From the IMG/VR virus record IMGVR_UViG_3300021373_000896, positions 1 through 25,917 of that record: DNA of 25,917 nucleotides; one strand, 5' to 3'. Positions 6,966 through 21,702 of the stretch are shown piece by piece (position 1 is the stretch's first letter; the number at the start of each line of letters is the position of its first letter). This DNA is from a virus. Both the position numbers and the translations under genes were made by a program. Below the pieces are notes generated by a model that saw nothing but the letters and a program-made list of their open reading frames with translations, was not told where the DNA came from and did not search any database.

Positions 6966-9188
6966 TTACACTTCGTTTATTAATTCTAATGTAGCTTTAC
7001 CAGTATTTATATTCATCTGTATTTTGTTTATCTTGTAACTTCTACCTGATATAATTAGTTTATCGTTTAGCTCTAACTTAGTAACTAATTTTAAAGGTAA
7101 TGTAGCTTCAAACTTAGATAATCTTGACTTTTCATTGTATATAGGCACTATATAGTTAAAGTAGTAATTATTAAACAGACTTTCTGTATTTACATTATCT
7201 ACAAAAAACTCATCTCCTTCTTCACCAAAATGAATTGACTGTAAATTAGTAGATGCACTTGTTGTTAAAGTATTTGCTGGTCTTATATATTGGTCAAAAT
7301 CAGTATCATCTGTGCTAAATATAGGATATGAACTTGTATCTTGTTTTATACCATAAAAAACTAGAGGTTTTCCAAGTATTGTATTTTCATCCTTATTAAC
7401 CATCCACCCCCATTGTATAGTAGTCCTTTCTGTGTCATCATTTTGATTAGTCATTCTCTCATACATCATGTGTTCAAATCCTAACTTAACAGAATACGTT
7501 CCCCCATCAAACGTTAAAGGGTTGCTTATAGCATTAGACCTATTACTAAGTCTTTCATTACCAAACTCATCATTAGTTATTTCATTGCTATTTACTATGG
7601 CAAAAGTAGATGCGTCTTGATACTCGAAATCTATCTTAGAGAATATATTTGCTTTATCTACAGTATGTTTGTCAGTATGAATATATTGACTTACATCATG
7701 ATTTGTTCCTTCTTCATAAAATTTATCTAATGTTCTTACTTTAATTGTTTCTCCATCATAAAAAGCAGTTAGATTAAACATCTTAAATACTGATGTTAAA
7801 AAGTCTATAACTTTCATCTTAGGCATATTATCTACCACATTTATACCTGAAGAAACTCCTATAGCATTACCTCCATTGTATGTGTAGTTAGCATCATAAC
7901 CAGCAGAACTACCTGAGTTATCTATTTCATTGTATACTATAGTAAAACTGTTTACAGCTATTTGAGTTATACCTCCTTGTGTTCTTACTTTAAATATAGG
8001 CGTAAAAGTTTGTGTTCCTTCGCCACTTCCAAATTCTTTTCTTATCGTATAACTTCTAGTAACAGGGCCTCCTCCAGAATGCTCTGAAGTTCCTATAATT
8101 TCTCCTGACTCTCCATCAAATAACTCTAAAGTATATAGCCCTGTTCCAGTTGGAGTTACTTGTATTTGATAATTATAATAAATCTCGGTAGTATCAGGTC
8201 CGTCAACTACAATAGAAGTAACTAAGTCTTTATTAGAATTGCTTCTTGGGTCGTTTTGACCAGTAGGGGTTGTGTTAACAAACAAATAGTCATCTAAATC
8301 AATTTTTCTTTCGCTTATTGCTATTTGTGAAGATAAATCTCCTTTTTCTCTATTCAACCATAGATATAACTCATAGAATGAAGCATTAGACGTACTAAAG
8401 AAGTCGTTTGTTCCGTTTTTAGAGAATGTAATACCATACCTATCTTCTATACCTAATATTATGTGATATAATCTAATTGCTGGTTTTAAGTCTATCATAG
8501 ATAGTCCAGTATAGGGAGTTCCAGAATTATGATGTCTTACATTTCTTGAAACAACCTCTTCTCTTAACTCAGGTCCATTATCGTGCTGTGAATCCCAATA
8601 ATAATGACTTTTACCACTTATAAAAGGATAACATAAGTCTCCTGCTGTTGTGCTAGAACCGTTAGAGACTAAAACGCCATTAACTAAATTAAATCCGTCA
8701 GAAAACCCTGTTTCTACGTTAGAAGTAGTATATGTTTGATTAAATTGAGATAAATAAGAAGTATTATCTACAGCTAAGTTATCTAACTCATCATCTCCGA
8801 AAAGCAAATTAAGATTTACTGTTTTTCCATAAAACACAATCTTGTAAGCAAAAGGAACTCCGTTTTTCATGCTTACACTATTTAAACTAAGAAATCCTTT
8901 CTTATAATCCTCTCCATTTATCTTTATTAAAGCTTCTTTCTTTACTCTAGCATCATAACCACCTATAATATCAAAATTATAATAGTGTTTAAAGATTAAG
9001 TTGTTAGGAGAACTAGCAGGTACACTAAATTGTTGTGTAAAGTCAGTAAATACCTTAGCTATATCTCTAATATCCTGTATTGAGTTAGTTATATTAACAG
9101 ATTCTTCTGAAAATATATCTAATCGACTATAGCTTATAGTTTCACCAAATTCTGCTGTATTTATGTATATTTCTACTTCTCTACGCAT
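6966..9188 (-). CDS. Large baseplate/tail-tip structural protein
   Basis: This 740-aa protein has an N-terminal pattern I know from Bacteroidetes-phage tail proteins: 'FTQQFSVPASSPNNLIFKHYYNFDI' character (~49-73), then 'GYDARVKKEALIKING' and a 'KIVFYGKTVNLNLLFG' strand. The middle contains beta-rich Ig-like stretches with Thr/Gly runs (~315-430). The C-terminal third ('FLTSVFKMFNLTAFYDGETIKVRTLDKFY' onwards) resembles the tail-hub style in which a receptor-facing beta domain ends in a small OB-like fold ('LIISGRSYKINKIQMNINTGKATLELI'). Located immediately upstream of the tape measure, it is likely the distal tail or tail-hub protein. No enzymatic motif was seen. Structural role fairly sure, exact position in the tail inferred. 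Confidence 0.65.
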   Translation of the reverse strand: MRREVEIYINTAEFGETISYSRLDIFSEESVNITNSIQDIRDIAKVFTDFTQQFSVPASSPNNLIFKHYYNFDIIGGYDARVKKEALIKINGEDYKKGFLSLNSVSMKNGVPFAYKIVFYGKTVNLNLLFGDDELDNLAVDNTSYLSQFNQTYTTSNVETGFSDGFNLVNGVLVSNGSSTTAGDLCYPFISGKSHYYWDSQHDNGPELREEVVSRNVRHHNSGTPYTGLSMIDLKPAIRLYHIILGIEDRYGITFSKNGTNDFFSTSNASFYELYLWLNREKGDLSSQIAISERKIDLDDYLFVNTTPTGQNDPRSNSNKDLVTSIVVDGPDTTEIYYNYQIQVTPTGTGLYTLELFDGESGEIIGTSEHSGGGPVTRSYTIRKEFGSGEGTQTFTPIFKVRTQGGITQIAVNSFTIVYNEIDNSGSSAGYDANYTYNGGNAIGVSSGINVVDNMPKMKVIDFLTSVFKMFNLTAFYDGETIKVRTLDKFYEEGTNHDVSQYIHTDKHTVDKANIFSKIDFEYQDASTFAIVNSNEITNDEFGNERLSNRSNAISNPLTFDGGTYSVKLGFEHMMYERMTNQNDDTERTTIQWGWMVNKDENTILGKPLVFYGIKQDTSSYPIFSTDDTDFDQYIRPANTLTTSASTNLQSIHFGEEGDEFFVDNVNTESLFNNYYFNYIVPIYNEKSRLSKFEATLPLKLVTKLELNDKLIISGRSYKINKIQMNINTGKATLELINEV

Positions 9189-11363: not shown

Positions 11364-12085
11364 TAAACAGGTATGTATTGGAAGTCTTGTTGCTTCATCA
11401 ATTCTAGCTGCATCTTCTTTAGCGATTGTAAATATTGATTGATACCAACCCCACTTTTGTCCAAAGTTTGCTTGAGCTGAGGAGGAACTCCCTCCTTCTT
11501 GAATACCTTCACTAAATAATCCACCGTATAGTTTGGTAATTTTCTCCCTAAACGATAAAAAAAAACCATCGCCCCTATCGCTATATTAACTGGCATATCC
11601 AACATTACATCTGAGTACTTATTACTACCTTCATAATCCATAACTCTATAAAACTCCTTCTTCTTAAATATAATAGGTCTGAATAAGACAGCCATTGCTT
11701 TATGCATGGTCTGCCAATCAGATATATTATTATCTAAATCAATAAATTCTCCAAATGACATCTCATCTAACTTTGGTATAAAACCAAACTCAACAATAGT
11801 CTCCTCTCCATACTCATCTTTAGCAGACATCTCAAATCTATTAATTAAAGGTGTCTTTTCATCAAAACATCTATTTACTGCATTAATAGCAAAATCAAAG
11901 TTGTTTAAAGGTACTTTAAAAGTATCCTCTATATTTAGATTACAAAATATTTGTAACATCTTTGTTTTAATATACACCTCATCCTCCTTATCCCATTTAT
12001 CTAGTACTTTTAGATAATCTTGATACTGTCTTAATGTTATACCTTCTAGCTTAGAAGGCACATCTAACTTATACTCTTTTACCAT
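11363..12085 (-). CDS. First tail-block gene; tail-assembly-chaperone-like candidate
   Basis: The ATG at 12085 gives 240 aa; a longer frame exists only from a TTG at 12136 and its extra residues look non-coding. Visible features are 'LEGITLRQYQDYLKVLDKW' near the N-terminus, 'EFGFIPKLDEMSFGEFIDLDNNI' in the middle, then 'MHKAMAVLFRPIIF' and a helical C-terminus with a hydrophobic patch ('AIGAMVFFYRLG'). I know this pattern as a conserved hypothetical beside tail genes of Bacteroidetes phages. Helical content, size and position at the head of the tail block suggest an assembly chaperone, as inference. The exact 11-mer TCGTTATCATA precedes the ATG by 2 nt, which also supports this start. Confidence 0.6.
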   Translation of the reverse strand: MVKEYKLDVPSKLEGITLRQYQDYLKVLDKWDKEDEVYIKTKMLQIFCNLNIEDTFKVPLNNFDFAINAVNRCFDEKTPLINRFEMSAKDEYGEETIVEFGFIPKLDEMSFGEFIDLDNNISDWQTMHKAMAVLFRPIIFKKKEFYRVMDYEGSNKYSDVMLDMPVNIAIGAMVFFYRLGRKLPNYTVDYLVKVFKKEGVPPQLKQTLDKSGVGINQYLQSLKKMQLELMKQQDFQYIPV

Positions 12086-12087
12086 AC

Positions 12088-12098
12088 TATGATAACGA
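12088..12098 (-). promoter_or_regulatory. Start-proximal 11-mer TCGTTATCATA (copy 2)
   Basis: Exact copy, 2 nt before the ATG at 12085. An oppositely oriented CGTTATC lies at 12150-12156, making a GATAACG...CGTTATC inverted pair with a 52-nt spacer. The plus-strand context of that inverted copy (AAAAATATCGTTATC) is the same 15 bases that precede the gene at 1444 on the minus strand. Confidence 0.5.
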
Positions 12099-12718
12099 AA
12101 TCCACTACTTTTTGTTTTAACAGTAGAAAAAAACAAAAATAAAAAATATCGTTATCTATATAGACAGTTGCAAATCTGTATAAGTTGCTACACTTTAGGT
12201 ATCCACCCCTATTGGTTCGGGCAACCTAAATCTCCTTGAGAATTGCGATACTAAATCCTTTTGTTATTTTCGTGAACGCCCTAGTATCATTCAACTCAAC
12301 GAGTACATCAGCTAACCAGTTGTCTAGCTAACAACATTTAAAGTAACATATATAAAGAGGGGGGCGAATAAAACTCCATCAATACACCTTTTAATTACTC
12401 AACTCGTTTTACAATTATATTTATATTTTTAGAATATGAGTTTTAGAATAATTCGTTTTTGTAATGAAATCATAAGAGTGGGCTACTTACTCCAGCCATC
12501 TCCGATTTACGTTAAATTACTATATAATTACATTAAAATAATATATTCTGAATCGTTTTAAGCTATGTTTAAAGAAAGATATTTAAATATAGGTATGTAG
12601 ATATAGAAGAGGTAATTAGAGGCTCTTAAATGAGCTTAAATGAGGTTGTTCCAACATCAGCATATATAATATCTCATTATCAAACAGTTAAAAAATAAAC
12701 GCAGTAAATAAAGCGTAT

Positions 12719-12750
12719 AAAAAAAAGGGCTAAAACCTAAGCTTTAACCC
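12719..12750 (-). terminator. Intrinsic terminator closing the small-gene island
   Basis: On the minus strand, GGGTTAAAGC and GTTTTAGCCC pair over 10 positions (two G-U type pairs) around a TTAG tetraloop, followed by eight T. It follows the stop of the 93-aa gene by about 30 nt. Confidence 0.85.
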
Positions 12751-12778
12751 CTCTTTTGACTAACCAAAACAAATTATT

Positions 12779-15412: not shown

Positions 15413-16627
15413 TTATCGGATAACATATTTTCCAGAATTGACTCCTTGAATTAAATATTGAAGTGAATATCTTATTGCATCTATAAAGTGATTGTACTTA
15501 TCTATTGGCTTCTCTCCTTTATCGTGCCATACATAGTTGTTTAGCTCTCGTATAATACCACTAGAGTTTCTCTCTACTATAATCTCATAGTCTTGCATTA
15601 AAGCAATGCCAGATAGTATACTACCCTTCTTCTTAATAGTAGGTCTTATGTTTAGTCCTGTGTTTCTTAATTCATTTATAAGTCTAGGTTCTGCACTATC
15701 ACATATTATTAAATCTGCTCCACATTCCTGTCTATTCCTAAATGCTATGTCAGAAGTAGATAAACCAGTTTTTCCGTATATTTCTTTAACATATACCTTT
15801 CTAACCTCTTTATCAATAGAAACCTTTACAAGTGTTGTCATATCCATAGAGAAACCAAAATCTTGACCATAACAGGTTAATTCTGTCTGTGCAAACTCTC
15901 CTACCTTCCAATTTCTTATAATTGTTCCTTCAGCTTTCTCCATCCAACCACCTAAGATAACATGCTCAAACTTAGAAGGGTTTCTTCTCTTCATCTCATA
16001 CAACTGTGTTAAGAATGAGTCTGACAGATTGTCTTGATTATCTTCGTATGTAGTATGGATATAAGTAGCATCATCCTTTATACCATTAAAGCCACCTTTT
16101 ATACTTTTATATAAAAAATATCTTTGATATATCCAATGCTCTTTTGTAGCAGGGTTTAATATTAAAATACATCTATTCTGTTTATTCTGTGAACGTATAG
16201 AAAAGTCTATCTTGTTAAACACATCTTCTTCCATAAGCTCTTCTGCTTCGTCTACAACAAACGTTGTAACGCCATTTAAGGACTTTAGAGCTGCTGTCTG
16301 GTTACCAGAGGATGTTCGTATACCTTTAAACATTATAGAGCTTCCTGTCTTAAGATTTATAATCTCATCTTTAGTTATCCTAAAATCTCCGTGTACATTC
16401 ATCAGGTCTATCTTCTCAATAAACTCAGGAATAATAGAAGTGTTAGCTGATGTTAAAGTATATCTAGTAAACAATACTTTATGCCCTTCTTCATACGTTA
16501 GGTTAAGTAGAAACAAAGCTACTCCAAATGATTTACCTGAACCTCTACCACCAGTTACAATATAGTATCTGCTCTTAGATTGAAACAAAGGAATGTATTT
16601 ACTATGTAGATTTATATTACTATTCAT
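15413..16627 (-). CDS. terL: Terminase large subunit (Terminase_3/PBSX type)
   Basis: This 404-aa packaging motor/nuclease carries all expected motifs: Walker A 'TGGRGSGKS' (25-33), Walker B 'TTFVVDEAEE' (121-130), coupling motif 'LILNPA' (145-150), then the RNase-H-like nuclease with acidic residues in 'GQDFGFSMD' (Asp256), 'IICDSAEP' (Asp310) and 'HFIDAIRYS' (Asp373). Length is typical of the compact Terminase_3 group. The start overlaps the small-subunit stop by 8 nt, so translation is coupled. It is followed by the six-repeat array rather than by a terminator or the portal gene, which is unusual. Confidence 0.95.
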   Translation of the reverse strand: MNSNINLHSKYIPLFQSKSRYYIVTGGRGSGKSFGVALFLLNLTYEEGHKVLFTRYTLTSANTSIIPEFIEKIDLMNVHGDFRITKDEIINLKTGSSIMFKGIRTSSGNQTAALKSLNGVTTFVVDEAEELMEEDVFNKIDFSIRSQNKQNRCILILNPATKEHWIYQRYFLYKSIKGGFNGIKDDATYIHTTYEDNQDNLSDSFLTQLYEMKRRNPSKFEHVILGGWMEKAEGTIIRNWKVGEFAQTELTCYGQDFGFSMDMTTLVKVSIDKEVRKVYVKEIYGKTGLSTSDIAFRNRQECGADLIICDSAEPRLINELRNTGLNIRPTIKKKGSILSGIALMQDYEIIVERNSSGIIRELNNYVWHDKGEKPIDKYNHFIDAIRYSLQYLIQGVNSGKYVIR

Positions 16628-17018
16628 CGTCTGGAGTTACATCTATTGTATCTTCTATGTTTTGTATATCTTTATTGTTAAAGAAGTTTATTACAGGTAC
16701 TTGTACTTTGTTAGACTTCTTAGCATCATTTATACTATCAGAGGGCTTACCATAAGCATACTCTAGTAGTAATTTCATGTGAGTAAAGTTATTCTTAGCT
16801 AAACTTGCTAGGTGTTTAAACGCTTCTTTCTCGCTACCAAATACATCTTTCATAGCTGAGGTAGCATAAGATGCTATCCTGTCTCTCTTAGCTTTATTCT
16901 GTCTAGCTGATGGTAATTTGTTTGTAGTAGATATAGGTTTAGGTGCAAGTCTCTTATTATGTTTCCTACCGTCTGTAGGTTTTATCTCTTGTGATTTATT
17001 CTTTTTTGCTCTAGCCAT
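16620..17018 (-). CDS. terS: Terminase small subunit candidate
   Basis: The 132-aa protein has a very basic N-terminus (MARAKKNKSQEIKP... 'RKHNKRLAPKP'), then a helical part 'KAKRDRIASYATSAMKDVFGSEKEAFKHLASLAKNNFTHMKLLLEYAYGKPSDS'. The 'LLEYAYGKP' ending is one I associate with small-terminase-like DNA-binding proteins upstream of terL. The acidic C-terminus 'DTIDVTPDDE' overlaps the terL start by 8 nt. Its role would be recognition of the packaging start site. No clear helix-turn-helix can be scored by eye, so the call leans on position. The 13-nt spacer before its ATG consists of the conserved 11-mer plus 2 nt. Confidence 0.65.
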   Translation of the reverse strand: MARAKKNKSQEIKPTDGRKHNKRLAPKPISTTNKLPSARQNKAKRDRIASYATSAMKDVFGSEKEAFKHLASLAKNNFTHMKLLLEYAYGKPSDSINDAKKSNKVQVPVINFFNNKDIQNIEDTIDVTPDDE

Positions 17019-17020
17019 AA

Positions 17021-17031
17021 TATGATAACGA
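17021..17031 (-). promoter_or_regulatory. Start-proximal 11-mer TCGTTATCATA (copy 3)
   Basis: Exact copy, 2 nt before the ATG at 17018. It occupies the whole spacer between the stop of the 71-aa gene (17032) and this start, so the spacer has no room for a separate leader. This is the first gene of the packaging unit. Confidence 0.5.
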
Positions 17032-17247
17032 TTATTTAGTATTATGTTTTTTGTATAGCTTTAAGTATATATCTGTAATACCTTGATGTATAGTTGTTTT
17101 AGTATATACATCTTCAATAAATACTTTCTTTACTCCTTTCTCTATAACTATATTATAATCCTTGTTGTTTTTAGTTACAGGGTATATAACAAAGTCATTC
17201 TTAAAACACCACCTTAAAGCTTTCTGTCTTTCGTTTTCTAAATACAT
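17032..17247 (-). CDS. 71-aa unknown basic protein
   Basis: This 71-aa basic, mixed alpha/beta protein starts MYLENERQKALRWCFKNDFVIYPVTKNNKDYNIVI and continues with 'GVKKVFIEDVYTKTTIHQGI'. It ends in a basic helix 'LKLYKKHNTK'. No family recognised, though the N-terminal half has the look of a short phage DNA-metabolism accessory protein. The start overlaps the previous stop as TAATG, so it is coupled to the membrane protein at 17247-17465. It is the last gene before the conserved 11-mer of the terminase unit. Confidence 0.55.
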   Translation of the reverse strand: MYLENERQKALRWCFKNDFVIYPVTKNNKDYNIVIEKGVKKVFIEDVYTKTTIHQGITDIYLKLYKKHNTK

Positions 17248-21138: not shown

Positions 21139-21702
21139 TTATATTTTATCGTAATCTTTATTATAAAAGTCTTCTACATCCTCCTGAAACTTATCTTTTA
21201 TTCTTTCCCTATAATGTCTTATAGAGTTATATAAGCTAGACCTACCTATACCTAATTCTTTTACTAACTTATCTAATGATAAATCTGTGGTAAAATATGC
21301 TATACATAAGTTCTTGTTATAAAAATCCCAACTATTTATTTCATCTAGTATCTTATTATATATTTTAGTAAACGCTTCTTGTTGTTCTAAATCAACTCCA
21401 GCATATATACTACTAGACTCATACATATCATTGGCTTCATCATTCTCTAATATTTTAAAGAACTTATATCTGCCTCTTGTCCTTTTATAATCAAAATACA
21501 TTGACTTTAATGTTAAATATATATAAAACCTATTTGCTGATTCATTATTATACATTACATTTTTTCCTCCTTCAATAAGTCTATGAACTTTTAAGTACAT
21601 CTCTTGTACTATATCTTCTGCTATGCTAGGATTACATCCTAAGTTAATTACCATCTTCACCCATAGCTTGTGACTTTTGGCTATCTTTTCTAAATCGCTC
21701 AT
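21139..21702 (-). CDS. Phage sigma-70-family factor (ECF-like, regions 2 and 4)
   Basis: This 187-aa protein has a sigma region-2-like part ('AEDIVQEMYLKVHRL', 28-42, then 'FYIYLTLKSMYFDYKRTRGR', 59-78) and a region-4-like helix-turn-helix ('LSLDKLVKELGIGRSSLYNSI', 141-161, then 'RHYRERIKDKF'). No region 1 or 3 is seen, as in ECF factors. Its likely role is to redirect host RNA polymerase to phage promoters, perhaps the late units. The ATG at 21702 lies 59 nt inside the RusA gene; a downstream ATG at codon 17 would cut into region 2, so the long overlap is kept. It could instead be a sigma-like transcription regulator. Confidence 0.75.
   Translation of the reverse strand: MSDLEKIAKSHKLWVKMVINLGCNPSIAEDIVQEMYLKVHRLIEGGKNVMYNNESANRFYIYLTLKSMYFDYKRTRGRYKFFKILENDEANDMYESSSIYAGVDLEQQEAFTKIYNKILDEINSWDFYNKNLCIAYFTTDLSLDKLVKELGIGRSSLYNSIRHYRERIKDKFQEDVEDFYNKDYDKI

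Follow-up and report, generated by a model that had tools for sequence, protein, structure and literature searches.

A new family of pseudoknotted phage RNA, probably transcribed from its own promoter beside the tail genes

A structured spacer between the tail genes and the terminase

What is encoded by the gene-free spacer that separates the tail genes of this phage from its terminase, and what are the inverted repeats that it carries? The window, which is the whole stretch of DNA analyzed here, is a phage fragment of 25.9 kb whose phage genes lie on the - strand. Its tail and head genes run downward from 12082, the terminase occupies 15413-17018, and the repeats lie in the gap at 12083-12778, between the tail/head block and the terminase side and about 3 kb from the terminase. 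The preliminary description had placed a candidate element at 12160-12340 and considered a phage non-coding RNA, a structured 5′ leader upstream of the tail block, or a packaging signal. Its basic observations agree with ours: all of the quoted repeats are present at 12160-12340, no gene-like ORF was found there, and the AT bias is weaker than in the surroundings, with a G+C content of 35-41% compared to 18-30% in most neighboring 100-nt windows. ARAGORN detected no tRNA or tmRNA at 12160-12340, no tRNA lies nearby, and Rfam gave no match, consistent with the earlier failure to fit the region to a tRNA, tmRNA, or known riboswitch. The location was also correct, but the end at 12340 was not, as the element reaches approximately 12366. 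The two main features of the region are as follows.

11366-12082, - strand: tail-block gene behind a divergent promoter (PHROG 32199)
12162-12366, + strand: probable structured non-coding RNA of about 205 nt (covariation among 33 members, covariance-model matches, and promoter)

No gene lies downstream of the RNA on the + strand of the window, and no 3′ terminator was found for the RNA. A terminator-like hairpin with a T-run was recognized by eye near 12720-12760 and seems to close the upstream operon; a strict terminator scanner did not report it. A second conserved element is located at approximately 12450-12520 of the window (ACGTAAA...GTAGTCC...AATGAATTCAA in the - strand sense), about 100-150 nt past the probable 3′ end of the RNA. 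This element is duplicated in some relatives, and also occurs at 8000-8150 of locus L095 and adjoining the RNA in L121 and L244.

Fold of the RNA and compensatory changes

Relatives were fetched from IMG/VR using the neighboring tail protein, the large terminase, and conserved motifs, and 33 distinct members were aligned. The structure that we named comprises 44 pairs, including interleaved pseudoknots, and consists of the following parts.

12164-12167/12176-12179, + strand: stem S2 of pseudoknot PK2 (ACAG/CTGT); two-sided change at 2 of 4 pairs, 97% of cells paired
12170-12173/12185-12188, + strand: stem S1 of PK2 (GCAA/TTGC); 100% of cells paired, four pair types at one position
12196-12199/12208-12211, + strand: hairpin P3 (TAGG/CCTA), then a conserved TTGG; 4 of 4 pairs covary
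12232-12234/12301-12303, 12236-12240/12295-12299, and 12243-12245/12292-12294, + strand: helix P1; two-sided change at 5 of 11 pairs, 96% of cells paired
12247-12253/12282-12288, + strand: hairpin P2 (GATACTA/TAGTATC); 7 of 7 pairs covary
12263-12270/12340-12347, + strand: helix P0b, from the P2 loop (GTTATTTT/AAAGTAAC, one G.U pair); supported by partner permutations
12277-12281/12362-12366, + strand: helix P0a, from the P2 loop (CGCCC/GGGCG); covaries and is supported by partner permutations
12311-12314/12325-12328 and 12319-12323/12331-12335, + strand: optional pseudoknot PK1 (GCTA/TAGC and GTTGT/ACAAC), missing in some clades

S1 interleaves with S2 in PK2, forming an H-type pseudoknot, while P0a and P0b anchor the loop of P2 to the 3′ end of the RNA. 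As several strand pairs interleave, the RNA is predicted to be pseudoknotted at both ends, and this locking of both ends suggests a stable RNA. The 3′ end is placed near 12366 by the last conserved helix. Among relatives, P0a takes forms such as GCACCC/GGGTGC, GATGCCC/GGGCATC, and TTCTGCC/GGCAGAA, and P0b forms such as TATAATCTT/AAGATTATA, ATAACCTT/AAGGTTAT, and ATTGTTTT/AAAACAAT (all in the - strand sense). Four of the five repeats described earlier correspond to conserved helices, including GTTGT/ACAAC (PK1a, covarying at 5 of 5 pairs) and AGCTA/TAGCT (2 of 4). The fifth, TTTAGGT/ACCTAAA, was rejected as a helix because it is not conserved and competes with the conserved TAGG/CCTA pairing of P3.

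Across the 44 pairs and 33 sequences, 93.8% of cells are paired, and 30 of the 44 pairs show changes on both sides. Double-change cells number 270, compared to 82 ± 8 in shuffles, and the covariation score is 0.464, against 0.152 for shuffled alignments; when the structure is slid along the alignment, the score does not exceed 0.066 and no more than 43% of cells pair. The structure was partly drawn from the same alignment that scored it, and hence two further supports were weighed. P2, PK1, and PK2-S2 had been named beforehand from a single sequence in the preliminary description. Moreover, in a blind phylogeny-aware scan of approximately 25,000 column pairs with a tree-based null, pairs of P1, P2, and PK2 ranked first, the top pair belonging to P1; single-pair E-values were modest (0.06 to 3) because independent lineages are limited in number. 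In the conserved half (PK2 and P3), represented by 57 unique sequences of which two are probably chance matches, all 228 cells of S1 hold Watson-Crick pairs, and one position of this stem varies among CG, TA, GC, and AT. The P0a strands pair with their own partners over a run of 6.26, compared to 4.88 with permuted partners, and those of P0b likewise pair longer with their own partners; for each helix, none of 300 permutations was as good.

Folding energy had also been proposed as a check, and here the + strand did no better than shuffled sequence (z 0.51 for 12160-12370 and z -0.64 for 12140-12345), while the - strand was somewhat better (z -2.31). The + strand values are what would be expected if the repeats were chance features of AT-rich spacer DNA. 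However, nested-only energy models are unable to score these pseudoknots, and the compensatory changes, the other check proposed, occur throughout the shared fold and were given more weight. Covariation in the 33-sequence alignment refutes an origin by chance, for which we see practically no room. By this comparative evidence the repeats exceed chance, and the fold is well established at the level of sequence; the element is very probably a structured RNA gene.

Promoter and direction of transcription

Structural and terminase genes of these phages share a two-box promoter, RAACA-N14..17-GTTAT, which stands at a fixed distance from the start codon. At 43 unique gene sites (ORFs of at least 80 aa, all loci scanned) the ATG lies exactly 6 nt past GTTAT, and four decoy patterns gave no site 6 nt before an ATG. 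The genes that bear it encode terminase, tail, head, protease-like, and other structural proteins, and, given the exact spacing, the mRNAs of these genes probably lack a leader. The same promoter is found in the isolated Nonlabens phage P12024L (L162) at 146-172, with an ATG 6 nt on. Four copies in the window are relevant here.

1451-1475, - strand: promoter of the gene at 2-1444, with 6 nt between GTTAT and the ATG
12092-12117, - strand: divergent promoter of the tail gene at 11366-12082, with GTTAT ending 6 nt before the ATG
12131-12155, + strand: promoter of the RNA (AAACA-N15-GTTAT), the same two-box element, just outside PK2
17025-17049, - strand: promoter of the gene at 16620-17018, again with 6 nt between GTTAT and the ATG

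The tail gene and the RNA gene are thus separated by a divergent promoter pair, 13 bp apart, at 12092-12155. Since a gene-type promoter points into the RNA, the RNA would be transcribed from the + strand and away from the tail operon, and we hold this direction with high, if not complete, confidence. Counting the same 6-nt spacing places +1, and with it the probable 5′ end, at 12162. Among 55 unique RNAs, 28 have the strict promoter at the PK2 end (+1 is A in 26 and G in 2), and about half lack it. Wobble pairs give no help with the strand, because G.U and A.C cells occur at similarly low frequencies whichever strand is considered. Folding energy was tried as a guide to the strand, and its mild preference for the - strand was overruled by the promoter evidence.

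The direction of the promoter also bears on the earlier proposal of a 5′ leader for the tail block. The tail genes lie on the - strand behind a promoter of their own, the RNA promoter points the other way, and in four relatives (L148, L127, L099, and L097) the genes between the RNA and the tail operon run opposite to that operon, which excludes a leader role there. The leader was accordingly rejected.

A sigma-factor-like gene is located at 21139-21702 on the - strand (PHROG 1740; Pfam Sigma70_r2 below the cut-off), and its product is a candidate for the factor that recognizes the RAACA/GTTAT promoter.

Occurrence among phages

The element was recognized in more than 100 IMG/VR loci, although some contigs were fetched twice, and 60 unique near-full-length sequences were obtained among the relatives. 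The motif collection gave at least 119 stretches with the correct spacing and 26 with a spacing one base too long, the latter serving as a rough chance control. Among fully covered loci with a closely related terminase, L095 was the exception noticed, as only the upstream elements were recognized there by eye. Of the more distant tail-protein relatives, L051 and L060 had no covariance-model match in their records and L072 had a match at chance level only. P12024L lacks the RNA, and its TerL is 51% identical. Beyond these phages, two exact motifs had no match in 84,980 bacterial and archaeal genomes, and there was no meaningful match among 50,697 named phage records.

Some contigs, including L308, L336, L341, L345, L374, and L386, carry only the 5′ half of the RNA (PK2, P3, and TTGG), which implies that the core consists of the 5′ pseudoknot and hairpin. 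In this group, the element is located between lysis-type and replication-type genes, not close to the terminase, and is preceded by a few nucleotides by a TATATATTTR-like box that differs from the strict promoter. Full-length RNA is also found in phages of another type (L340, L367, L377, and L378), and the terminase of L378 belongs to a different family (phrog_6681). In L391, the RNA is located between what look like, by gene order, the small- and large-terminase genes. RNA type and terminase type are not strictly linked.

L372 (2028-2165, - strand), L341 (2041-2181, + strand), and L340 (7545-7691, + strand) each encode a very basic protein of 46 aa with KYRGQGR at its C terminus. These proteins are 58-77% identical between otherwise different phages and adjoin the RNA in one group. 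The protein was considered as a partner of the RNA and rejected, as its relatives lie elsewhere in the group of the window.

Relation to known RNAs

No Rfam 15 family was found at the gathering threshold in the window and 17 relatives, nor was there any meaningful match at E-values up to 5, and a limited literature search found no paper describing this RNA. It constitutes a new family, and RNAs of this kind have few precedents. The nearest in kind are GOLLD and ROOL, which are also free-standing phage or prophage RNAs with elaborate folds (PMC12286853). ROOL has several pseudoknots, and GOLLD consists of one universally conserved and one variable half (PMC12286853), a division that the present RNA shares. 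However, GOLLD and ROOL are approximately 660 to more than 800 nt long and often located near tRNA islands (PMC12286853), whereas the present RNA has a conserved length of about 205 nt, well below the more than 600 nt expected of these families, has no tRNA nearby, and gave no Rfam match to either.

The packaging RNA (pRNA) of phi29 is similar in being a phage RNA of comparable size, and the present RNA uses the promoter type of the terminase genes. On the other hand, there was no Rfam match to pRNA at the gathering score and none to any phage RNA at E-values up to 5, the helices differ, and the phages are larger and use another packaging system.

Processive-antitermination leader RNAs, such as HK022 put and EAR, are structured RNAs near the start of an operon. 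The present RNA resembles them in its position, but it is divergent from the operon and so could not act on it in cis. More generally, a cis-acting leader or riboswitch is expected on the sense strand upstream of the regulated gene throughout the family, and this arrangement is not seen here because of the divergent promoter and the antisense neighbors in relatives.

Alternative explanations and possible function

Transcription from the - strand, yielding a small RNA or a leader ahead of the tail operon, is improbable. It draws on the somewhat better folding of that strand, on an excess of unpaired G over C there, and on spaced boxes (CTTTTTG-N23-GAAATATA) that precede P0a in several clades. 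However, the CTTTTTG box was detected solely next to the RNA and immediately upstream of no gene, while the box on the + strand is the gene promoter of the phage; the tail gene is served by a separate promoter at 12092-12117, and the genes downstream are antisense in the four relatives named above. The structure could also act as single-stranded DNA, as an origin, a priming site, or a packaging site, since G.U pairs are no commoner than A.C and contig ends cluster near the RNA. We regard this as quite unlikely, because a gene-type promoter points exactly into the 5′ end of the RNA. Moreover, the complete contigs examined mostly end elsewhere, several in variable tail-fiber genes, so that the clustered ends mark no terminus; on the same grounds we rejected the idea that a genome terminus or a cos site adjoins the RNA, and the packaging signal of the preliminary description is superfluous for the data.

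A packaging RNA resembling that of phi29, made with the terminase genes and forming part of the DNA-translocation motor, has more specific points in its favor, namely the promoter common to terminase genes, the distance of 3 kb from the terminase in the window, the position in L391, and the pseudoknots that lock both ends. Against it, the RNA occurs with two different large-terminase families and is absent from P12024L despite its related TerL, which argues against a strict terminase partner; the 5′-half-only group is not close to the terminase, and Rfam gave no match. The loose link between RNA and terminase types weakens a packaging role, and the phi29-like version appears to us to be a long shot.

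Taken as a whole, the data are best explained by a free-standing, trans-acting, late phage RNA gene on the + strand, an explanation that we favor with moderate confidence. The earlier suggestion of a phage non-coding RNA is supported by the covariation and by the RNA having its own promoter. The promoter at 12131-12155 would drive a + strand RNA from approximately 12162, divergently from the tail operon. The RNA would fold compactly into the 5′-terminal H-type PK2, hairpin P3, and a long P1/P2 hairpin, its loop pinned to the 3′ end by P0a and P0b, with PK1 added in many members. Because terminase, head, and tail genes share its promoter, it may be transcribed during infection along with the morphogenesis genes. 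Action in trans is likely, as the window has no gene downstream on the + strand, and the RNA would then act late, at the same stage as the terminase, head, and tail genes. What it does there is more tentative. The leading concrete guess is a putative role in assembly or packaging, in which the RNA would most probably contribute to virion assembly as a structured molecule, alone or in complex with protein. This guess is more likely wrong than right, and the phi29-like packaging RNA makes up about half of its probability. It is rather doubtful that the RNA represents a widespread virion-assembly or packaging RNA outside the phi29 group, that is, a trans-acting particle co-expressed with terminase, head, and tail genes in phages with different terminases.

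Free-standing structured RNAs of phages are few and mostly orphans, and the present one is compact with strong covariation. Through the promoter, which the isolated P12024L also carries, the program of morphogenesis genes in these phages becomes readable. With a strand, a start site, and a fold in hand, the RNA is directly testable, and its recurrence in uncultured marine phages with different terminases suggests that its function is likely general rather than particular to a single phage.
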